Shown: one piece after another, positions 51,920 to 62,374 of the stretch
Position numbering within the stretch: position 1 is the first letter of the stretch
Layout: each line of letters begins with the position of its first letter
NCBI RefSeq assembly: GCF_015710575.1
Contig: NZ_CP065373.1
Span: 5,518,001-5,582,000 of the forward strand
Direction: 5' to 3'
Source: Mycolicibacterium mengxianglii
Lineage (GTDB): Bacteria > Actinomycetota > Actinomycetes > Mycobacteriales > Mycobacteriaceae
Length of the DNA stretch: 64,000 nucleotides
Notes under the pieces: generated by a model
What the model saw: only the letters and a program-made list of their open reading frames with translations
Told to the model about the DNA's origin: nothing
The model's database searches: none
Translations under genes and position numbers: made by a program

Positions 51920-52083
51920 CTTAGCCCAGCTTTACAGCATTTGTTGCTGAAAGGTCCCGAGAGCGGGCAAATCCCGCGATAGAACTGGGGGCACTGGGTG
52001 CCGCTAAATTGCCTCAGAGTCAATTCGCCGGGGGGTACGCGCCTCAGGAGCCAATATCGTTCCGGAAGGCATACCGTCAGGCG

Positions 52084-53553
52084 GTGCACTTCGAGGACTA
52101 TCGCCGATACGACGCCACCGGACTGGCAAAGCTGGTCGCCGACAAGGAGGTGAGCCCGGCAGAGCTACTGGCCATCGCGCAGGCGCGAGCCACGGCGGTC
52201 AACCCACGGATCAACGCCATCGTCAACGACGTACCGGCCTCGCCCACTGCCACCGTCGACGGCCCCTTCGCCGGGGTCCCGTTCCTGATCAAGGATCTGG
52301 CACAGGACTATGCCGGCCTGCCGAGTTCCCGTGGCTCCCGCGCCCTGATGTCGACGCCGGCCGCCGAACACGCGACCGTCGTCCGTCGCTGGATCGACGC
52401 GGGACTGGTCATCTTCGGCAAGACCAACACCCCCGAGTTCGGCACCAAGGGCATCACCGAACCCGACGTCTGGGGACCGGCGCGCAATCCATGGGACCTC
52501 AGCCGCACACCTGGCGGGTCGTCGGGCGGATCAGCCGCCGCGGTGGCAGCGGGCATCGTGCCGTGCGCGGGAGCCAACGACGGCGGCGGATCCATCCGGA
52601 TCCCGGCGGCCTGCTGCGGATTGGTCGGGCTCAAGCCAGGGCGGGGGCTCACGCCTCTGGGTCCGACAACGGGCGAGTCCATGCACGGCGCGGCGGTACA
52701 GGGTGTCGTGTCACGAACAGTGCGCGACACCGCGGCCATGCTGGACGCCATCAGCGGTGGCGAACCCGGCGGGCCATACCAACCAGCAAGTCCCGCCTCC
52801 CCTTTCGCGTCGAATGTCGGGGTGGACCCCGGGAGGCTGCGCATCGGCGTGCGGGTTCCGACCGGGATCAACCCGGCCCCACATCCCGAGGCATTCGCGG
52901 CCGTCGAAGCGGCAGTTCAGGCGTTGACCGAACTCGGGCACCATGTCGAAGAACTGCCGCAGGCCCCGTTCGACGACGCCGCGCTGGCTCGGGAGTTCCT
53001 GCTCACCTGGTTCGTGTACACCGCATGGGAATTGGCCGACGCCAAGCGTCTCACCGGAGCCGGCGACGAGGCGTTCGAGCGGGACACCCTGGTCCTGGCC
53101 GCACTCGGCCGCGCCACCAGCAGTGTCGACTACGTCGACGCCATCCAGCGCCGCCACGAACACACCCGTCGATTGACCGCGTACTTCCAGAACTATGACC
53201 TGCTCCTGACACCGACATTGGCGACTCCGCCGCCGAGGATCGGCGAGTTCGACCTCCCGGTCATGTTGGCCCACGGCGCGGACGTACTTCTCAAGACGCG
53301 CACTGCCGGACTGCTGCGCTACACCAAGATCGTCGACGACATGGTGGACAAGAACCTCGCCTGGGTGCCGTACACGCAGCTGGCGAATATCACTGGGCGA
53401 CCGGCACTTTCGCTCCCACTGCACTGGACCGCGGACGGGTTGCCGCTCGGCGTCCAGTTCGTCGCGCCGCTGACAGGCGAGGCATTGCTCATCCGGTTGG
53501 CTGCTCAACTGGAGGAGGCCGTGCCGTGGGCCGATCGCGTGGCGCCGGTGTAA
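52084..53553 (+). CDS. amidase-signature hydrolase
   Basis: About 489 residues from GTG 52084 (TTG 52009 adds 25). Complete triad: Lys70 (PFLIKDL), Ser146 (PGGSSGG) and Ser170 (GGGSIRIPA), spaced as in other amidase-signature enzymes. N-terminal [20 protein letters not shown] is a typical family start. It is unrelated in sequence detail to the amidase at 12374-13792 beyond the shared fold. Substrate unknown. It is divergent from the iron-box gene but 165 bases from the boxes. Confidence 0.87.
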
Positions 53554-53566
53554 CAGCCGGTTCAGC

Positions 53567-53707
53567 TCAGTCGGGGTGCGCCTCGGCCGCCACCGCGGCG
53601 AGCATGCCGTCGAAATCCTCACCGCACGGCACACAGGCGTGCAGGTGGACCAACACCCCGATATCGGCCGGGTCGGTACTGAGGAACCAGTTCACCTGAT
53701 CGGTCAT
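53567..53707 (-). CDS. 46-residue small protein with His-x3/Cys-x2-Cys motif
   Basis: A 47-codon gene with a good ribosome site (GGAGGGGCC before ATG 53707). It contains LVHLHACVPCGEDFDG: two His and a CxxC in a tight cluster that could bind a metal, and the ends are acidic. Clear ribosome site and coding-like composition support a real gene. It is 58 bases after the RpiR gene on the same strand, so probably the last gene of the amidotransferase-RpiR transcript. Function unknown. Confidence 0.65.
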   Translation of the reverse strand: MTDQVNWFLSTDPADIGVLVHLHACVPCGEDFDGMLAAVAAEAHPD

Positions 53708-53765
53708 GGCCCCTCCAATGCCACTGTGGACGCGAGAAACTCGTGGGCTACCAGGTGGCCGCGGA

Positions 53766-54671
53766 TCACCCGAGCAGCTCGGCGCTGCGCTGATCCTCCC
53801 ACAGCGCCATCCGGGTGCGGGCCGGTTCGCCGAGTGCGTCCATCACCAGAGGAATGAGCAGTTCGGTCAGGAGGAACCCTGCTGCCATGCTCTGGTATGT
53901 GGTGCCGACCGTGCTGGACGCGGCCAGGACGACTTCGGCCTCGGGTGCCACCGGACAGGCCAGATCATCGGTGATCAGCAGCACCGTTCCACCGGCCCTA
54001 TGTACCCGCGCCGCGAAATCGGCTGCGCTGCGCTGATACCGGTGGTAGTCGAACAGCACGACCACGTCCCTGCGGGTCAGCTCGATCATCGCGCCCAGAT
54101 CGCGTCCAGCGGGATCGGCGATCGCCCGCACTCCCGGACGCAGTTGCTCGAGGTGCGCACCCAGGTGCTCCGCCAGCAGATGCGAGAACCGGCCGCCGTG
54201 CAGGTACAGCGGGCGGCTGGTGTCCGACAGCAGAGCCACGGCGGTTTCGACAGCGGAGACCGGCAACTGGGCGAGCGTCTCGACGGCCCGTTGATTCTGT
54301 GCCTGGGCCTGCTGGAGTAATCGGTCGAGCAGACTGTCGGCCGCGGGCGCACGCGGCAGGCGGGTGATCGGACCGTTGGACCGTGCGGTCAGCTCCGCTC
54401 GCAGTGCCACCTGCAGATCGGTGAACCCTTCGTAGCCAAGGGATTGCGCGAATCTCAGCACAGTCGGGGGGCTTACCTCGGCGCGCTCGGCGAGCCGGGC
54501 GGCACTGGCGAGCCCGGCACTGGGATAGTCGGCGAGCAGTGCCCGCCCCACCCGTCGTTCAGCGCGGCTGAGAGTCGGCAGAGCGGCGCCGGTCCGCGCA
54601 GCCACTGTCGACGCCCCGGCCTCCGTCGCCGTTTCGGCCGGTACTTCCACTGCGTCGCTGGCCACGGCCAT
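53766..54671 (-). CDS. MurR/RpiR-family regulator
   Basis: A 301-residue regulator: N-terminal HTH_6 (ARLAERAEVSPPTVLRFAQS near residues 60-80) and a C-terminal SIS domain (about 150-285, PLYLHGGRFSHLLAEHLGAH ... VVLFDYHRYQRSAADFAARV). SIS domains in this family bind phosphosugars or other small effectors. ATG overlaps the amidotransferase stop by one base (TGATG). It is the likely regulator of the divergent amine-utilisation genes. Confidence 0.88.
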   Translation of the reverse strand: MAVASDAVEVPAETATEAGASTVAARTGAALPTLSRAERRVGRALLADYPSAGLASAARLAERAEVSPPTVLRFAQSLGYEGFTDLQVALRAELTARSNGPITRLPRAPAADSLLDRLLQQAQAQNQRAVETLAQLPVSAVETAVALLSDTSRPLYLHGGRFSHLLAEHLGAHLEQLRPGVRAIADPAGRDLGAMIELTRRDVVVLFDYHRYQRSAADFAARVHRAGGTVLLITDDLACPVAPEAEVVLAASSTVGTTYQSMAAGFLLTELLIPLVMDALGEPARTRMALWEDQRSAELLG

Positions 54672-55468
54672 CAATCTGCCACAAGCGGCAACTGTTCCAC
54701 GGTCAGGTCATGCATCGAGATCGCCGTCACAGACTCCGCTGCCAGCGGTTCCCACCCGAGGTCGCCGAATCCGGTGGAGGCCACCACCACGACGCCGTCG
54801 GCCGGCCGGGCGATCCGCAGTGCGAAGTAGTCCTCCAGATGCTCGGCAGGCAGATCGGTCCCGTTGATCTCCTCGATGTCCTCATCCAGAAGGCGGCTGT
54901 GGGCGTGGGCGTCGACGACGATCAACGTGCCCTCACCGAGGATCAGCGCGTTGAGGCTGGCGTCGGGATAGATCTGCCGAAGCTGCACGACCGCGCGCCG
55001 GACGGCTTCGGCCAGGTTCGGCGCAGTGCGCCGATGTTGGCGGATGACGGCGAAATACCGCTCACTGTCGGTGGTTCCGCGCAGTGCGGCCGCTACTGCC
55101 GGCTCCAACAGGTCATCCAGTGGCGCCATCGGCTTGATGGAACCGTTGTGCGCCATTGCCACGCCGTCGGCCAGGAACGGATGGGAGTTCTGCGGCTCCA
55201 CAGCGAGCCCGTTCGTCGCCCACCGCAGGTGAACCAGAGCGGCCGAAAAGCGCCGGTCGTGGGTCGCGGCATCGAACTCCGGATCACCGAGCGCGCAACC
55301 GGCCGATACCTGGATGTGCGGGGTGTCGCCGAGATGGCCCACGCCCGCCACGCCCCAACCGTCACCGTGAATCTTGGTCAAGGCGACGAAATCCCTGAGC
55401 ACGGAGTCCCCGACGGCGTCGGCAATCGAAATCGGGTTGACAGACACCACACCCAGAAGCCGACACAT
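54671..55468 (-). CDS. class II glutamine amidotransferase (stand-alone Ntn hydrolase)
   Basis: A 265-residue protein that begins MCRLLGVVS, exposing the catalytic Cys2 after Met removal, which fixes ATG 55468 as start (GGAGG 9 bases upstream). Further class II motifs: HLRWATNG, AMAHNGSIKP and GTTDSERYF. Stand-alone members such as YafJ and EgtC cleave gamma-glutamyl or glutamine amide bonds. Its divergent partner is a glutamine synthetase-like ligase, which suggests that it hydrolyses gamma-glutamyl conjugates made by that ligase (inference). Confidence 0.87.
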   Translation of the reverse strand: MCRLLGVVSVNPISIADAVGDSVLRDFVALTKIHGDGWGVAGVGHLGDTPHIQVSAGCALGDPEFDAATHDRRFSAALVHLRWATNGLAVEPQNSHPFLADGVAMAHNGSIKPMAPLDDLLEPAVAAALRGTTDSERYFAVIRQHRRTAPNLAEAVRRAVVQLRQIYPDASLNALILGEGTLIVVDAHAHSRLLDEDIEEINGTDLPAEHLEDYFALRIARPADGVVVVASTGFGDLGWEPLAAESVTAISMHDLTVEQLPLVAD

Positions 55469-55579
55469 GCGAGCAATCCTCCGTTCCACGATCTTATGAA
55501 TCAACCATAGTCAGCCGAAATTGATGATCCTGAAACATTCATGACATAGATTCCTCCCAGACTCTTCGAAGGAGGTTTC

Positions 55580-56905
55580 ATGCCGATGTCGAACGACGAT
55601 CGCATCGACGAGCTGCGCGCCGAAGGTGTTGAGCTCGTGGCGGGTTCGGTGACCGACCCAGCCGGGGTCACCAGGGCCAAATACGTGCCGTTACGTCGAC
55701 TCGGCGATTTCCAGCGCTCCGGGATGGGTGTCTCACCCTCCTGGAGCGTTTTTTGTGTGGACAGCGGCATCGCCTTCACCCCGACCATCGGTGTCGACGG
55801 TGACCTGCGCATCCGGATCGACCCCGCCGACACGCGAATCATCGACACCGGCGTCGCCTGGGCCCCTGGCAACCTCACCGACCAGGCCGGTGATGTCGTG
55901 CCGCTGTGCCTGCGCTCACTGCTCGCCAAGTCCGAACAGGCCGCCGCCGGGCGGGGACTGACGGTGCAGGTCGGCGCCGAACTCGAGTGCACGATGCTCG
56001 CACCTGACGGCGGCCCGGCGTCGGTCGAACCGTGGTCGCCCTACGGTATTCGCACGTCACTGGACCGATCGGCACTCCTGGTCGATCTCGCTGCCACGGC
56101 CGAGCGTGCCGGGCTGATGATCGAACAGATCCACACCGAGTACGGCCACGACCAGCTCGAGGTCTCCCTGGCGCCGACCACCCCGGTGGCCGCGGCCGAC
56201 GCGGTGATCCTGGCCCGGATCGTGCTGGGCCGGGTGGCAGCACGCCACGGCCTGCGAATCTCGTTCGCCCCGGTGCCATTTGAGGGCGCCGCCGGTAATG
56301 GTGCCCACCTGCATCTGTCGTTGACCGACAAGCAGGGCCCCCTGTTCTCCGGCGGTGAGGGGCCCCACGGCATCCGGCCCGCCGGTGGATCCGCGATCGC
56401 GGGGGTCATCGACACCCTGCCCGACCTCATCGGGGTGTACGCGGGTTCCGCGTTGTCCGCGCTGCGACTCAAGCCGGGTAACTGGGCGGGCGCCGCGGCC
56501 TGCTGGGGTCTGGAGAACCGGGAAGCCGCAGTGCGTTTCATCGCGGCCACTCCCGGCAGCCCGCATGGCGCCAACGTCGAACTGAAGTTGATCGATCCCA
56601 GCGCCAACCCGTACCTGGCCGCGGCGGCATTTCTGAGCAGTGCCCTGCGGGGCATCGACCGCGAACTCGAGCTGCCCGCCGAGATTCCCCAGAACCCCGC
56701 GCAGTCCGCGACGGTCCCGCCGCCGCTGCCCACGGGACAACGTGCCGCCCTGGATGCCATCGAGAGCTCCACCGTGGCGGCGGAGTTGTTGACACCCGAG
56801 GTCGTCGAAGCCCTTCTGGCCGTGCGCCGTTACGAGCTGGACACCTACGGTGACCGTCCGCCCGCCGAAACCACCCAGGCACTGCGCCTGGCGTGGAGTT
56901 GTTGA
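55580..56905 (+). CDS. glutamine synthetase-like gamma-glutamyl-amine ligase
   Basis: A 441-residue glutamine synthetase-fold ligase with the barrel motifs GAELECTML, EYGHDQLEVS, NGAHLHLSL and ENREAAVRF. The N-terminal beta-grasp (LVAGSVTDPAGVTRAKYVPL) is of the type found in FluG/PuuA-like ligases rather than nitrogen-assimilating GlnA, which is about 470-480 residues in mycobacteria and ends with the adenylylation loop, absent here. It probably joins glutamate to an amine with ATP. GGAGG lies 5 bases before ATG 55580. First gene of a five-gene operon. Confidence 0.87.
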   Translation: MPMSNDDRIDELRAEGVELVAGSVTDPAGVTRAKYVPLRRLGDFQRSGMGVSPSWSVFCVDSGIAFTPTIGVDGDLRIRIDPADTRIIDTGVAWAPGNLTDQAGDVVPLCLRSLLAKSEQAAAGRGLTVQVGAELECTMLAPDGGPASVEPWSPYGIRTSLDRSALLVDLAATAERAGLMIEQIHTEYGHDQLEVSLAPTTPVAAADAVILARIVLGRVAARHGLRISFAPVPFEGAAGNGAHLHLSLTDKQGPLFSGGEGPHGIRPAGGSAIAGVIDTLPDLIGVYAGSALSALRLKPGNWAGAAACWGLENREAAVRFIAATPGSPHGANVELKLIDPSANPYLAAAAFLSSALRGIDRELELPAEIPQNPAQSATVPPPLPTGQRAALDAIESSTVAAELLTPEVVEALLAVRRYELDTYGDRPPAETTQALRLAWSC

Positions 56906-56945
56906 TTCACCACCACGCCACGCGCACGACGAAAGGAAGACATCG

Positions 56946-58448
56946 ATGAGCACAAGCACGTCGTCGGCCAGCCCGTCTGAAGGAACCGACCAGATTCCCC
57001 ACCGCAGGCTGCCGTTCTGGGTGGCGTTGGCCATGTCGGTTGCCCTGGTCGGGCCGACACTGGCGATGTCCGGAAACGGTCAGGGCCTGATCGGCACCGT
57101 GGGCAAGGCCATCCCCCTGGTGTTCGTCATCGGCCTGATCGGAGTCTCGCTGGTCGGCTACAGCTTCGTCCGACTGACCCGCCACCTCAATCACGCCGGC
57201 TCGGCGTACGGGCTGGTAGGTGGCACCATCGGTCCCCGGGCCGGATTCTTCTCCGGTTTCGCGATGCTGGGTGCCTACGTGGGTTTCTCGATCGGCACCC
57301 TGGCGCTGACCGCGGCGTTCACCAACGCGTTCATCGCCCAGATGCAGCCGAACGCCGAAAACCCTTACCAGGTGCCGTGGTTGGCGGTGGTCGTGGTGGG
57401 CGCGGTCATCTCGTTCCTGCTCGCCGGCCGCGACATCCGCTTACTGGCCAAGATCCTGCTCGGCATCGAGGGCATCGGCATCCTGGCCATGTTGGTGTTG
57501 GTGGTGGCGATCTTCGCCAAAGGCGGTGCGCCGACCACCGGTATCGACTTCAGCGTGTTCACCTTCGACGGGGTTTCGAGCTCCGCGGTGCTCAGCGGTG
57601 TGGTGGCAGCCTTCCTGTCCTGGGCGGGTTTCGAAGCGTGCGCGTCGATGGGCGAGGAGACCGACAACCCCGGCCGCAACATCCCCCGCGCACTGGCCGG
57701 CACGTTGCTGCTGACCGGCGTGCTGTTCGTCGTGGTGATGTTCGCCCAGATGGTCGGCTTCGGTACTGACGCCGCCGGTCTGGACGCCTTCCAGAACTCC
57801 GGAAACACGCTGGGAGACTTGGGCAGCAGCTACATCGGGCAGTGGTTCTCCCTGCTGATCATCTTCACCGCCACGGTCGCGGCGTTCGGCTGTCACCTGG
57901 CCACCTCGGCGACCTCGGGTCGGATGCTCTACGCCTTCGGGCGCGACGGCTTCGGCCCCAAAGCCCTGGCGCACATTCACGAAGGCACCGGCGGGCCGCG
58001 CCGCGCCACCTGGTTGGTGGTCGGCGTCGCGCTCGTGGTGGATTTGATCTGCGGTGCAGTCGGGTGGCCCGACATGGGCACGGGCGACCCCGCGATCAAT
58101 ACCTACTTCCTGTTCGCGGTGGCGGGTTCGGTGTGCCTGATGGTCTGCTACCTGCTGGTCGAGCTGGCGGCGGCGTGGTTCGTGGGTGCACCCAAGTTCG
58201 TGAGCGTGCACGGCGGCACCGGCAAGGTCCTCGGTTTGGCGCTGCCGCTGCTGGGCGCCGTGGTGATCGCCGTCGTGCTGTGGTTCAACGTCAAGGACGC
58301 CGAAACATGGTCGGCTGCTCCGCTGCTCGGCTTGTATTGGTGTGTCATCGGTTTGGTGATCGCCGTGGCCGCATCACGGATCGCCAAACGCGTCGGTGAG
58401 TCCTTGACCCTGGAGTTGAACTCGACGCCGCCGGTGAGCACCGAGTGA
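56946..58448 (+). CDS. APC-family amino acid/amine permease
   Basis: A 500-residue inner-membrane transporter with about 12 hydrophobic segments. Key motif FEACASMGEETDNPGRNIPR near residue 240 is the APC consensus loop. AAAGGAAG lies 6 bases before ATG 56946. Its stop overlaps the aminotransferase GTG (GTGA). Likely imports the amine substrate of the downstream enzymes. Confidence 0.9.
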   Translation: MSTSTSSASPSEGTDQIPHRRLPFWVALAMSVALVGPTLAMSGNGQGLIGTVGKAIPLVFVIGLIGVSLVGYSFVRLTRHLNHAGSAYGLVGGTIGPRAGFFSGFAMLGAYVGFSIGTLALTAAFTNAFIAQMQPNAENPYQVPWLAVVVVGAVISFLLAGRDIRLLAKILLGIEGIGILAMLVLVVAIFAKGGAPTTGIDFSVFTFDGVSSSAVLSGVVAAFLSWAGFEACASMGEETDNPGRNIPRALAGTLLLTGVLFVVVMFAQMVGFGTDAAGLDAFQNSGNTLGDLGSSYIGQWFSLLIIFTATVAAFGCHLATSATSGRMLYAFGRDGFGPKALAHIHEGTGGPRRATWLVVGVALVVDLICGAVGWPDMGTGDPAINTYFLFAVAGSVCLMVCYLLVELAAAWFVGAPKFVSVHGGTGKVLGLALPLLGAVVIAVVLWFNVKDAETWSAAPLLGLYWCVIGLVIAVAASRIAKRVGESLTLELNSTPPVSTE

Positions 58449-59752
58449 GCACGCTCTACCAGCGTGACGAGGCGGTGATCGCGGGCATCGAGAAACTGCG
58501 GTTCTTCCCCCTGGAAGTTGTCTCCGGTCACGGCTCGACGCTGGTCACCCCGGACGGTCGCGAGCTGCTGGACCTGTCGGCGACGTGGACAGCCAGCGGG
58601 TTGGGCCACGGCCACCCCGCGGTCGCCGACGCGGTCAGCCGGGCCGTCCTCGATGCTCCGGGATCCGGCGGCCTGTCCGCAGCGCACCCCGCGTCGGTGG
58701 GCCTGGCGGAGGATCTCCTGGCCCTGGTTCCCGGCGATGGGGAGCGCCGGGTGTACCTCGGACACGCCGGCTCGGATGCCAATGACGTGGCGCTTCGCGC
58801 CTGTCGGCACGCCACCGGCCGGCGCACCGTTCTGACCTTCGAACACAGTTACCACGGCGGCGTCGGCGTCGCGATGGGCGTCTCCGGCGTGCACGTCGAC
58901 GCGGGGGTACCGGCAGACCCGGATGCGGTATTCCTGCCCTACCCCAACCCTTTCCGGCCGTCCTCCGACGGTGTCGAGGCAGACGTGACGGCGTGCCTGG
59001 AGCTTGCCGAACACCACTTGGCCGGTGACTCCATCGCCTGCCTGATCGTGGAGCCGATCTTGTCCGACGGCGGCCTGGTCGTGCCGCCGGACGGATTCCT
59101 GGCCCGGCTGCAGGAACTGTGCCGCCGCCACGGGGTGCCGCTGATCTGCGACGAAGTCAAGATGGGCCTCGGCAGACCCGGCACCCTGCATGCCTTCGAT
59201 CACGACGGCATCACCCCCGACATCGTCACGTTCGGCAAGGTGCTCGGCGGGGGCCTGCCGCTGTCAGCGGCGGTGGGCCCGGCCGCGATTCTGGACAACC
59301 CGCCGGCCGCTGCCCTGCTGACCACCGCCGGGAATCCGGTCTGCGCCGCAGCGGGCCGCGCGGTATTGGCGACGATCGTCGACGACCATCTGCCCGAACG
59401 GGCGGCGAAAATCGGTGCGCTGCTGGCCGATGGGCTGCGTGCACTGTCCGGCTCACCGGGTTCCGAACGCATTGGCGATGTCCGCGGCCGTGGTCTGGCG
59501 ATCGGGCTGGAACTTGTCGATCCGCAGACCGGGGAGCGTGATCCCCGCCTTGCCGCGCAGGTGGTCTACCGTGCTTGGGAGCTGGGAGCGGTGGTCTACT
59601 ACGTCGGCGGCAACGTCCTGGAGATCACGCCACCGCTGGTGCTGACCGAGGCCGAGGCCGGCCGTGCGGTCGAGATCCTCGGTGCAGCCATCGCCGATGC
59701 CGCCGCTGGAAATGTGAATGCCGAGGAGGTCGCCCGATATGCCGGCTGGTGA
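58445..59752 (+). CDS. class III (omega) aminotransferase
   Basis: A 435-residue PLP enzyme with SATWTASGLGHGHPAVADAV, ICDEVKMGLGRPG and PLP-lysine Lys265 in TFGKVLGGGLP. Class III enzymes transaminate terminal amines (GABA, putrescine, ornithine, other omega-amino compounds). GTG 58445 overlaps the permease stop. In this operon it is a good candidate to remove the amino group from a gamma-glutamyl-diamine or related compound. Confidence 0.9.
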   Translation: MSTLYQRDEAVIAGIEKLRFFPLEVVSGHGSTLVTPDGRELLDLSATWTASGLGHGHPAVADAVSRAVLDAPGSGGLSAAHPASVGLAEDLLALVPGDGERRVYLGHAGSDANDVALRACRHATGRRTVLTFEHSYHGGVGVAMGVSGVHVDAGVPADPDAVFLPYPNPFRPSSDGVEADVTACLELAEHHLAGDSIACLIVEPILSDGGLVVPPDGFLARLQELCRRHGVPLICDEVKMGLGRPGTLHAFDHDGITPDIVTFGKVLGGGLPLSAAVGPAAILDNPPAAALLTTAGNPVCAAAGRAVLATIVDDHLPERAAKIGALLADGLRALSGSPGSERIGDVRGRGLAIGLELVDPQTGERDPRLAAQVVYRAWELGAVVYYVGGNVLEITPPLVLTEAEAGRAVEILGAAIADAAAGNVNAEEVARYAGW

Positions 59753-60929
59753 GTTGCCTGTGGGGGAATTGCCTGATGTCTTCGCCGGGGTCAGCGATCA
59801 GGTGCCCGACGCGCTGGCCGATCACCTGCGCGCACTGGCGCTGATCGACCACCACGTGCACGGCACCTTCAATGAGCCGGTTGACCGTGGCACATTCGAA
59901 GAGGCCATCAACGAGGGGTCCACCGATCCCATCCCGAGTTTCATGACCCAATTCGACTCGCCGCTGGGCCTTTCCATACGTCGCTGGTGCGCACCGCTGC
60001 TCGGTCTCGATGCCTTGGCGGGCGCCGATGAATACTGGGCACGGCGCAGCCAGTTCTCCGCCGACGAGCTCGCCCGCGCCATGTTGCCCGCCGCGCGCGT
60101 CGGGCGCTGGATCGTCGACACCGGGTTCAAGGGTGATCTGATCACCACACCCGAGGAGCTCACCAAACTCAGCGACGTCCCGTCCTCGGAGATCCTTCGG
60201 TTGGAGCGGCTCGCCGAGGACCTCTTGGAGAGCGGCACCTCACCCGACGAGTTCCCCGACGCATTCCGCGCCGCGCTGCGCGGCGCCGTGGACAACCCGG
60301 ACGTGGTGGGCACCAAGACAATCTGCGCGTACCGCTGCGGGTTCGACATCGACTGGTCCCGACCCGACGACGCCGACGTGACAATCGAGGCGCGCGAACT
60401 CGCCGACCGGCCCAGACCACTTCGTCTCGACAGTCCGGTGCTGATCGCGTTCGCCGTGCACGAGGCGGCCGCGCACGGGCTGCCCATCCAGGTACACGTC
60501 GGCTTCGGCGACCGCGATCTCGATCTGCACCGCACCGACCCGCTGCTGTTGTTGCCCTTGCTACGCTCGATGCCGCCGGTGCCCGTCCTGCTGCTGCACT
60601 GTTATCCGTTCCAACGACAGGCCGGCTATCTGGCTCAGGCGTTCGACCACGTGAATTTCGATGTGGGCCTGGCGATCAACTATCTGGGCGCCCGATCCAC
60701 CGGCCTGGTCGCCGAGGCTCTGGAAACAGCACCGTTCGCCAAGCAGCTGTTCTCCTCTGACGCGTTCGGCCCACCGGAGCTGCATGTGCTGGGCTCGGTG
60801 TTGTGGCGCCGTGCGATGGGCCTGGTGCTGGGTGCGTGGGTGCGCACCGGCGACTGCACCGCGCAGGACGCAATCCGGATCGTCGACATGATCGGCGTCC
60901 ACAACGCTACCCGGGTGTACGCGCTCTGA
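59739..60929 (+). CDS. amidohydrolase, FluG N-terminal type
   Basis: A 396-residue metal-dependent hydrolase. The HxH metal motif is LIDHHVHGTFNEP near the start; later metal and catalytic residues appear in VHVGFGDRDLDLH, LLLHCYPF and FSSDAFGPPELHVLG. In eukaryotic FluG this type of domain is fused to a glutamine synthetase-like domain; here it is a separate gene in the same operon. GAGGAGG lies 10 bases before ATG 59739, which overlaps the aminotransferase stop by 14 bases. Substrate probably an amide or gamma-glutamyl product (inference). Confidence 0.85.
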   Translation: MPAGELPVGELPDVFAGVSDQVPDALADHLRALALIDHHVHGTFNEPVDRGTFEEAINEGSTDPIPSFMTQFDSPLGLSIRRWCAPLLGLDALAGADEYWARRSQFSADELARAMLPAARVGRWIVDTGFKGDLITTPEELTKLSDVPSSEILRLERLAEDLLESGTSPDEFPDAFRAALRGAVDNPDVVGTKTICAYRCGFDIDWSRPDDADVTIEARELADRPRPLRLDSPVLIAFAVHEAAAHGLPIQVHVGFGDRDLDLHRTDPLLLLPLLRSMPPVPVLLLHCYPFQRQAGYLAQAFDHVNFDVGLAINYLGARSTGLVAEALETAPFAKQLFSSDAFGPPELHVLGSVLWRRAMGLVLGAWVRTGDCTAQDAIRIVDMIGVHNATRVYAL

Positions 60930-62374
60930 TGCACTCTGCAGCACCGCTTTTCGATTCACTGCGGCAATTCGTCGAGCGGGATCAGGCACCGTTCTACAGC
61001 CCCGGCCACAAGGGTGGCCGGACGCTGGACCCATGGTTCCGCGAGCACATCGCCGAACTGGATCTGAACAACCTGCCCGACACCGACACTTTGCACTGCC
61101 CCGAGGGTCCGATCCTGGAGGCTGAGCGGCTGATCGCCGACGCCTGGGCTGTCGGGCAGAGCTTCATGCTGGTGCAAGGTTCGACAAGCGGCAACATAGC
61201 CGTCGCCCTGTCAGCGCTACGTCCGGACGAGCCGGTGCTGGTGGCACGCAACGCTCACAAGTCCGTGCTCGCCGGTCTGGTGCAGGTGGGTGCCCGGCCG
61301 ATTTGGCTGGAACCCCGGTGGGACAACGACTTCGGCGTCGCACACGGACTCGATGCCGCGGTTGTCGAACGCGCCTTGGCCGACAGTGGGGCCAAGGCTC
61401 TGTGGGTGCTGCATCCCACCTACTACGGCACCACCGGCGACATCGCCGCGCTGGCTCAGCTGTGCCGTAGCCACGACGCCACTCTCCTTGTCGACGGCGC
61501 ACATTCGCCGCACTTCGCCTTCCATCCCGAATTACCGGTCGCCGCAGAGAGTGCCGGGGCGGCAGCAACAGTGCAGTCGGTGCACAAGATCCTGTCCGGG
61601 CTCAGCCAGGCCGCGGTACTGCACATCGACCCCACTGTGCTCGATCCGGCGTTGGTGCGGCGCGGGCTGCAACTCATCCAGACGACCAGTCCCCACTTCG
61701 CCATCATGGCCTCGACCGACCTGGCGCGCCGGCAGATGATGCTGCACGGCCGGGACCTGCTCGACGCCACCCTGGACCGGGCGCGGCGCACTGCGGCTCG
61801 GCTGGCTGCCATCCCTGGGCTGACCGTGCTGCGACCTGAGCACCTCGCCGGTGCGGGTACCGGGTTACATCAGCTCGACGAGACCAAGCTGCTGGTCGGC
61901 ACTTCGGGTCTGGCAGCAGACGGCCGCGATGTGGTCGCCCGGCTCAACCGCGTCCACGGGGTGCAGCCGGAACTGGGCGGCGCCGGCCACGTCCTGTGCA
62001 TCACGACGATCGGAAACACCGAGTCCGACATGGACCGACTCGTCGCGGGCTTCGCCGAAGTCGCCGGGTACGCGGGCCGGCGTCCCGATGGTGCGCGCAG
62101 CGACTTGATCACCGATCTGCTCGCCGTCCGGCCGCAAACCGTGCTCACACCGCGGGAGGCGTTCTTCGCCGCCGAGGTGTCGGTGCCACTGGCGCAGGCA
62201 TCGGGACGGATTGCCGCTGAGGCGATCACGCCCTATCCCCCGGGCATCCCGTTGGTGATGCCCGGTGAGCGGCTCAGTGACGACGTGATCGGGCTGTTAG
62301 GGGCCCTGCGTTCCGCCGGGAACCCCATCAGTTCCTCGGATCCGACGATGAACTTCGTCAAGGTGGTCAGCTGA
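60929..62374 (+). CDS. Orn/Lys/Arg decarboxylase-family enzyme
   Basis: A 481-residue fold-type I PLP decarboxylase of the short Gram-positive type. The N-terminal QAPFYSPGHKGGRTLDPWF and Lys220 in SVHKILSGLSQ (PLP) are diagnostic; GPILEAERLIADAWAVGQSF and LVQGSTSGN are conserved. It should make an amine (putrescine, cadaverine or agmatine) from the amino acid; the specificity is unknown. ATG overlaps the amidohydrolase stop (TGATG). Its presence with the ligase and aminotransferase points to polyamine-type chemistry. Confidence 0.88.
   Translation: MHSAAPLFDSLRQFVERDQAPFYSPGHKGGRTLDPWFREHIAELDLNNLPDTDTLHCPEGPILEAERLIADAWAVGQSFMLVQGSTSGNIAVALSALRPDEPVLVARNAHKSVLAGLVQVGARPIWLEPRWDNDFGVAHGLDAAVVERALADSGAKALWVLHPTYYGTTGDIAALAQLCRSHDATLLVDGAHSPHFAFHPELPVAAESAGAAATVQSVHKILSGLSQAAVLHIDPTVLDPALVRRGLQLIQTTSPHFAIMASTDLARRQMMLHGRDLLDATLDRARRTAARLAAIPGLTVLRPEHLAGAGTGLHQLDETKLLVGTSGLAADGRDVVARLNRVHGVQPELGGAGHVLCITTIGNTESDMDRLVAGFAEVAGYAGRRPDGARSDLITDLLAVRPQTVLTPREAFFAAEVSVPLAQASGRIAAEAITPYPPGIPLVMPGERLSDDVIGLLGALRSAGNPISSSDPTMNFVKVVS

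Follow-up and report, generated by a model that had tools for sequence, protein, structure and literature searches.

What does a mycobacterium do with a glutamine synthetase (GS)-like ligase that is encoded together with a predicted racemase, an amine permease, two hydrolases and a decarboxylase? This question is raised by a divergent gene cluster at positions 53567-62374 of the window, i.e. the whole stretch of 64,000 nucleotides analysed here (G000:C1:5518001-5582000, contig NZ_CP065373.1), from the 5.96 Mb genome of Mycolicibacterium mengxianglii. A preliminary description of this DNA had proposed that the encoded enzymes make, glutamylate, oxidise and deglutamylate a diamine. The reading preferred here, with a probability of roughly 0.4, is the gamma-glutamyl-tagged salvage of a chiral alpha-amino amide or lactam, probably stemming from a basic amino acid (a lysine or ornithine lactam, free or N-modified).

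This reading depends on the pyridoxal 5'-phosphate (PLP) enzyme of the cluster, which had been labelled a class III aminotransferase and assigned an oxidation by transamination. The seven solved structures that match it best (408-414 bits over 433 residues) comprise alpha-amino-epsilon-caprolactam (ACL) racemases, an amino-acid-amide racemase and four entries of the 5m4x series. These four entries are labelled just 'Aminotransferase class-III', and we take them to be ACL racemase as well. The next families follow at a distance, namely broad-specificity amino-acid racemases and isoleucine epimerases with 237-240 bits and gamma-aminobutyric acid (GABA) transaminase with 224 bits. The NCBIfam search returned transaminase, racemase and other class III names, and every one displayed was below its cut-off. 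The enzyme keeps W48, Y136, D208, K239 and the PLP lysine K265, of which D208 and K239 presumably correspond to the catalytic residues D210 and K241 of ACL racemase. Both are present in 86/86 sequences of the racemase family, the cluster's own included, an alignment that left out the second PLP gene of L146 because of a coverage below 0.75. In contrast, the pair is found in 0/4 more distant class III paralogues from the same loci, which have N/Q (3) or T/I (1) instead. The conservation of W48 is partly built in, since one of the two scan patterns contains this residue, whereas D208 and K239 are in neither. Two of the 5m4x entries (5m4b and 5m4d) have Ala at the positions aligned to D208 and K239, which fits the expectation for catalytic mutants. 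By its sequence, the PLP enzyme is a member of the ACL/amino-acid-amide racemase family, so the aminotransferase label is not confirmed and the proposed transamination step is left without support. ACL racemases are described as acting on alpha-amino lactams and amino-acid amides (PMC7431475), and the Achromobacter enzyme also acts on homocysteine thiolactone (PMC11391342).

Among solved structures, the ligase is most similar to 4HPP (160 bits), the protein of which we take to be PA5508 of Pseudomonas aeruginosa. The residues of GS for metal, ATP and glutamate binding are kept (E134, E136, E187, E194, H243, H245, R296, R314, R319 and E334), but Ser52 stands at the position of the Asp that deprotonates ammonium and Trp302 at that of the flap Glu. 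Residue tables for this comparison were taken from section 18 of PMC6478659, in which FluG has Ser481 at the same Asp position. Judged by these residues, the active site is of the gamma-glutamyl-amine ligase pattern and not of the glutamine synthetase pattern, in line with the glutamylation step of the preliminary description. Glutamine synthesis was rejected as its reaction because the ammonium-binding Asp and the flap Glu of GS are lost. Many mycobacteria carry a second homologue with 46-51 % identity, which is followed by an amidohydrolase (AH; 46-47 % identical to that of the cluster) in L048-L050. We take these two genes to be GlnA3 (Rv1878) and Rv1879. No second homologue of the GlnA3 type was found in the genome studied here, in which the other best matches reach 30-33 % identity over part of the protein. 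In vitro glutamylation of polyamines has been shown for GlnA3 of Streptomyces coelicolor and for that of M. tuberculosis, with spermine as a substrate of the latter (PMC11841054). PA5506-PA5509 were over-expressed in plasmid-bearing P. aeruginosa, where they are called glutamine synthesis (PMC6246594). Outside the window, at G000:C1:3864036-3865093, a single GS catalytic domain is split into two adjacent stretches in different frames (profile positions 2-94 and 97-344), which could reflect a frameshift in this copy or an error in the sequence.

The removal of the glutamate would fall to the stand-alone class II amidotransferase (GATII). It has the N-terminal nucleophile (Ntn) hydrolase fold with a Cys at the mature N-terminus, its model is closest in fold to EgtC, and it keeps the residues that bind glutamine in class II amidotransferases. 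EgtC removes gamma-glutamate from an amino-acid-type amide. GATII is not EgtC itself, since it reaches 58.0 bits against a cut-off of 218.65 for NCBIfam TIGR03442, and the genome encodes its own EgtC elsewhere (289.3 bits). The preliminary description had this enzyme standing in place of PuuD. This is valid for the cluster, in which comparison of the proteins with Pfam gave no match to a class I amidotransferase family, but not for the genome, because a PuuD-type C26 hydrolase is encoded at 3.458 Mb. It is the best of six PF07722 matches in the genome, none of which lies in the cluster. This hydrolase adjoins a further GS-family gene outside the window (G000:C1:3457999-3459673), and the two form a more canonical gamma-glutamylation pair. 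The second hydrolase, AH, has H46, H48, K200, Y205, H260, H294 and D348 at the metal and substrate positions of 2QPX and FluG (listed in PMC6478659).

The genes that accompany the racemase were surveyed up to 8 kb from it in 85 loci, consisting of the best 80 of 112 relatives from a racemase profile scan of genome contigs and five plasmid loci picked from 86 matching records. Genes for M20, FGase, isochorismatase-fold and glutaminase proteins were identified by Pfam on examples, and since a tblastn search with a small number of queries overlooks divergent genes, an absence carries less weight than a presence. Among the 40 mycobacterial loci, which are partly the same as the 27 same-genus loci described below, GATII was found in 37 (34/34 with full flanks) and M20 and FGase in none. 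The 45 non-mycobacterial loci contain GATII alone (19), FGase alone (12), M20 alone (7) or none of them (7), and never two. With respect to the putative ring or amide opening, 26 of these 45 loci contain AH, 12 an isochorismatase-fold hydrolase, seven neither and none both. FGase is accompanied by isochorismatase in 12/12 loci, and GATII or M20 by AH in 24/26; the remaining two lack both AH and isochorismatase. A candidate deglutamylase is present in 75/85 racemase loci, and GATII never occurs together with M20 or FGase (0/85), which, along with the EgtC-like fold, agrees with the earlier placement of a class II Ntn hydrolase in the apparent deglutamylase position.

A Fisher test over all 85 loci gave a p-value of 3e-4, and for actinobacterial loci with full flanks, where M20 is present in 0/46 loci with GATII compared to 6/7 without, the p-value was 3e-7; both tests ignore shared ancestry. 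The deglutamylase label changes seven times on a quick tree of 50 racemases, which has several long branches and four open forks, excludes 36/40 mycobacterial rows and does not count unlabelled rows. As FGase and isochorismatase are limited to proteobacteria here, repeated exchange within a phylum is provided by GATII and M20 alone. M20 and FGase enzymes hydrolyse N-acyl-amino-acid-type amides, as a gamma-glutamyl hydrolase would, and the AH and isochorismatase-fold families include amide hydrolases. The mutually excluding hydrolase genes may well do the same job. Another 40 AH loci were selected, not at random, from 106 genomes with AH, and several of them were cut by contig ends. GS was present in 28 of these loci, the racemase in three, GATII in one and M20 in 10, with one of the M20 matches being weak and distant; no locus had both M20 and GATII, and 29 had neither. 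L150, L154 and L162 also contain a glutaminase-family gene (PF04960) next to those for FGase, isochorismatase, GS and racemase, and its product is possibly another gamma-glutamyl amide hydrolase.

The cluster is conserved as a unit. An orthologous ligase (67-100 % identity) is encoded in 28/198 genomes of the genus, the own genome counted, while any ligase match with an E-value of at most 1e-60 is found in 148/198, the next class having about 50 % identity. All 27 other orthologous loci resulted from the ligase search and were read individually. GATII adjoins GS in 27/27, and the six genes for the RpiR regulator, GATII, GS, APC permease, PLP enzyme and AH are all present in 23/27. Among the remaining four, contig ends truncate L062 and L063, L046 is without the PLP enzyme, and L047 has GATII and GS alone. 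The association of these genes exceeds chance. The two genes in L047 (G018:C5:67500-86500) are remnants with 65 % and 67 % identity, which suggests that GATII and GS could work as a pair without the other cluster genes. The regulator is also a regular partner and lies beside the cluster in 34/34 mycobacterial and 22/29 other racemase loci with full flanks. The 9-mer TGAAACATT is exactly conserved in 35/41 divergent intergenic regions (40 loci and the window), and the conserved block surrounding it is likely the RpiR operator.

The taxonomic distribution of the racemase loci, again for the best 80 of 112, covers mycobacteria, Microbacteriaceae, Micrococcaceae, Nocardioides, Geodermatophilaceae, Acidimicrobiaceae, Pseudonocardiaceae, Alphaproteobacteria and others. 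Of 298 genomes drawn from the order, four encode the racemase at an E-value of at most 1e-90, the own genome counted. Among plasmids, 86 records match it, 45 of which are from Klebsiella. On the Klebsiella pneumoniae plasmid OW969657.1 (L181), the cluster takes a proteobacterial form. One strand carries the genes for RpiR, an FGase-like protein and a RutB-like hydrolase, while the opposite strand carries GS, a permease annotated as PuuP and a gene annotated as 2-aminohexano-6-lactam racemase (about 63 % identity). Arsenic genes are located nearby.

The Orn/Lys/Arg decarboxylase (OKR) is an accessory member. Its major and C-terminal domains are both matched, with K220 in SVHK, and the PLP lysine motif of such decarboxylases is SxHK. 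It is the sole PF01276 match in this genome, and across the class, any such match was found in 72/197 genomes. It is present in 19/27 of the same-genus orthologous loci and, for loci with full flanks, in 29/34 mycobacterial and 7/29 other racemase loci. Its position varies from the 3' end in mycobacteria and a downstream site in Microbacterium to the far side of RpiR on the other strand in Nocardioides, Acidimicrobiaceae and neighbouring metagenome-assembled genomes. Its label changes five times on the racemase tree. The substrates of OKR enzymes are Lys, Orn or Arg, and opening of the ACL ring yields lysine.

Taken as a pathway, these genes would act as follows. The APC permease would import a cationic compound, the D and L forms of which the ACL-type racemase would interconvert, and the GS-like ligase would use ATP to join the gamma-carboxyl of glutamate to the amine of the compound. 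Opening of the amide or lactam would fall to the FluG-type amidohydrolase, and removal of the glutamate, which leaves the free L-amino acid, to the EgtC-like class II hydrolase. OKR, where present, would decarboxylate the resulting basic amino acid. Both arms of the cluster would be governed by RpiR through a single operator. In contrast to the families, residues, gene order, conservation and exclusions, which were observed, the order of these steps, the substrate, the role of the regulator and the direction, i.e. use or synthesis, are conjectural. The proposed substrate is a lysine- or ornithine-derived alpha-amino lactam or amide, the simplest compound that would need import, a racemase, a ligase, an amide or lactam hydrolase, a deglutamylase and an optional decarboxylase. 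Hydroxamate-lactam siderophores, capuramycin-like natural products or amidated peptides are perhaps the sources of such compounds. The idea of a mycobactin-type lactam as the only substrate was set aside, since the cluster is also found in Microbacteriaceae, Nocardioides, Acidimicrobiaceae and Alphaproteobacteria, which are not known as mycobactin producers. More broadly, the genes may tentatively be regarded as an undescribed gamma-glutamylation pathway for alpha-amino lactams or amides of the lysine or ornithine lactam type in Actinomycetota, Alphaproteobacteria and Klebsiella plasmids.

Several observations weigh against the salvage of a chiral lactam. The GS-AH pair is common without the racemase (28/40 AH loci have GS, 3/40 the racemase), L046 keeps the cluster without it, and L047 is reduced to GATII and GS. 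In L222 (G534:C99:12000-25500), OKR stands with RpiR, GS, APC, AH and M20, likewise without a racemase. L222 and the GS-AH loci lacking a racemase imply that the core may act on substrates other than chiral lactams. The proposal also gives no reason for the glutamylation of an amino lactam ahead of its hydrolysis. As for the hydrolases, the amidohydrolase SCO6961 of S. coelicolor is likely co-transcribed with glnA3, induced by polyamines and predicted to act as the hydrolase in a polyamine pathway (PMC5403932), which would make AH and not GATII the deglutamylase. The queries for M20, FGase, isochorismatase and glutaminase were chosen after the loci had been viewed, and the loci with FGase and isochorismatase are all proteobacterial, so that their exclusion is confounded with phylum. 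Finally, the racemase occurs without any of the hydrolases in 5/45 non-mycobacterial loci (L144 and L158 among the 29 with full flanks; L171, L172 and L174 are cut).

The main rival is a role in polyamine detoxification or homeostasis. There, the ligase and the class II hydrolase would toggle glutamylation, AH would cleave an acylated polyamine, and the racemase would serve some other substrate of the niche. Besides the induction of glnA3 and SCO6961 by polyamines in Streptomyces (PMC5403932), the decarboxylase in the cluster is in line with this, as are the ATP-binding cassette (ABC) transporter genes with an SBP_bac_8 binding protein found beside several alphaproteobacterial versions. Such transporters resemble polyamine uptake systems. 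However, polyamines are achiral, yet the racemase is found among these genes in two phyla (in a sample drawn by racemase), and the pairwise exclusion of the hydrolases would be left without explanation; this role appears unlikely. A variant of the Puu pathway, in which a diamine supplied by OKR is glutamylated by the ligase, oxidised through transamination by the class III enzyme and finally freed of its glutamate by GATII, could draw on the 46-51 % identity of the ligase to the second homologue in the genus, taken as GlnA3. The in vitro activity of GlnA3 from S. coelicolor and M. tuberculosis on polyamines (PMC11841054), the capacity of OKR to supply a diamine and the annotation of the Klebsiella plasmid permease as the putrescine importer PuuP point the same way. 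The family of the PLP enzyme contradicts it, with D208 and K239 in 86/86 members compared to N/Q or T/I in the four other class III proteins. Moreover, no amine oxidase or aldehyde dehydrogenase of the PuuB/PuuC type was detected by Pfam in the cluster or in the 16 flanking open reading frames (ORFs) scanned. Due to this absence and the racemase-type PLP enzyme, a diamine substrate is no longer required, and the variant appears quite unlikely.

Two further explanations are less probable still. The racemase of Achromobacter takes homocysteine thiolactone (PMC11391342), and ring opening by AH or isochorismatase-fold enzymes is conceivable, so that the cluster could dispose of reactive alpha-amino lactones or thiolactones, such as homoserine lactone or homocysteine thiolactone, by racemisation, capping with gamma-glutamate and hydrolysis. 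This is very unlikely, since OKR, acting on basic amino acids, would have no place and the FluG amidohydrolase has been likened to cyclic amidohydrolases (PMC6478659). There is an equally slim chance that the product of the cluster is a gamma-glutamyl signal or a capped metabolite, in analogy to the proposal for FluG, which joins an AH and a gamma-glutamyl ligase in an unidentified pathway with a gamma-glutamylated intermediate (PMC6478659). The permease, the RpiR-type control and the patchy presence (28/198 genomes of the genus) resemble catabolism, and a candidate deglutamylase in 75/85 racemase loci argues against such a biosynthetic role.

The annotation covered the window beyond its first 43 kb, and the features of the cluster are listed in Table 1. 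All genes named in the preliminary description, from RpiR to OKR, were found where it had placed them.

Table 1. Features of the gamma-glutamylation cluster, with positions in the window; enzymatic roles are predictions.
Feature	Position	Strand	Support
RpiR/MurR-family regulator (HTH_6 + SIS)	53766..54674	-	Pfam HTH_6 49.6 bits, SIS 35.3 bits
Stand-alone class II (Ntn) amidotransferase (GATII), Cys2, EgtC-like fold; proposed gamma-glutamyl hydrolase (deglutamylase)	54671..55468	-	
Divergent promoter/operator region common to both arms	55469..55579	.	contains TGAAACATTCATGACATAG; putative operator
GS-like gamma-glutamyl-amine ligase	55580..56905	+	Gln-synt_C 222 bits; 4HPP 160 bits
APC-superfamily amine/amino-acid permease	56946..58448	+	AA_permease_2 118.5 bits; ATG start 56946
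Class III-fold PLP enzyme, ACL/amino-acid-amide racemase family	58445..59752	+	408-414 bits to 2zuk/3dxw/6gio/5m4x
FluG-N-terminal-type binuclear amidohydrolase (AH, Amidohydro_2)	59718..60929	+	PF04909 46.5 bits; 2QPX 107.9 bits
Short Orn/Lys/Arg (fold I) decarboxylase (OKR), accessory, not in every cluster	60929..62374	+	OKR_DC_1 194.7 bits; C-terminal domain 48.3 bits; SVHK, K220

The divergent starts of GATII and GS are separated by 111 nt. Translational coupling, which had been claimed for the whole GS arm, applies to its downstream part: the APC and PLP genes overlap by 4 nt, the PLP and AH genes overlap as well, and the AH stop and the OKR start share the A in TGATG (OKR ATG at 60929). 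In contrast to these overlapping genes, GS and APC are separated by a gap of 40 nt. A 46-residue Cys/His protein (53567-53707), previously counted as a part of the cluster, was left out because no relative was found in 69 loci searched at E-values up to 10 (best E-value 0.88) and the Pfam and NCBIfam searches gave no match. The amidase at 52009-53553 was also rejected as a part, as there is no homologue beside the 27 same-genus orthologous loci; its matches are weak only, in L052 (a GlnA3-type locus, 27 %) and L185 (37 %). The 16 flanking ORFs encode short-chain dehydrogenases, an aldo/keto reductase, a transporter, an alpha/beta hydrolase, an HD-domain protein and regulators, and two of them had no Pfam match.

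Known relatives exist for each part of the cluster. The combination, the racemase identity within it and the three-way exclusion of deglutamylases were not found described in the literature searched, which covered part of the matches and lay mostly outside subscription journals. If the proposed pathway is true, the ACL racemase would gain a physiological role and the FluG reaction pair would become available in a bacterial, genetically separable form. The mutually exclusive class II Ntn, M20 and FGase proteins would be candidate gamma-glutamyl hydrolases from three unrelated families that are not linked by automatic annotation. On these genes, names like 'aminotransferase' and 'glutamine synthetase' would lead metabolic models astray, both for mycobacteria and for Klebsiella plasmids.

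Compared to the Puu pathway of E. coli, the cluster shares a GS-like gamma-glutamyl ligase, an APC-type importer and a separate deglutamylating hydrolase. E. coli PuuD cleaves gamma-glutamyl-GABA and not gamma-glutamyl-putrescine, which corrects the substrate assumed in the preliminary description. The cluster differs in the lack of PuuB and PuuC, in a class II EgtC-like instead of a class I C26 hydrolase, and in the additional racemase, FluG-type amidohydrolase and decarboxylase. With the GlnA3 polyamine system (glnA3-SCO6961 and Rv1878, with Rv1879 as its probable AH partner), it has in common a GS-like ligase adjoining an Amidohydro_2 protein, whereas L048-L052 show no recognised GATII, APC or racemase. 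From EgtC, its GATII is set apart by just 58.0 bits to the EgtC equivalog, with a cut-off of 218.65. The PLP enzyme, a putative racemase, resembles the ACL racemase (EC 5.1.1.15) over its full length, in the catalytic Asp/Lys pair and in the PLP Lys, Trp and Tyr, but differs in its gamma-glutamylation gene partners. To our knowledge, ACL racemase is known chiefly through its industrial use, and the conserved set of partners provides a testable physiological context for this family. For FluG of Aspergillus, a two-enzyme architecture has been described without a known substrate (PMC6478659). The cluster has the same 2QPX-type amidohydrolase and 4HPP-type ligase with the same catalytic residues, but encodes the two activities as separate genes, and these stand among informative partners, namely a racemase, a class II hydrolase, a permease and a regulator.

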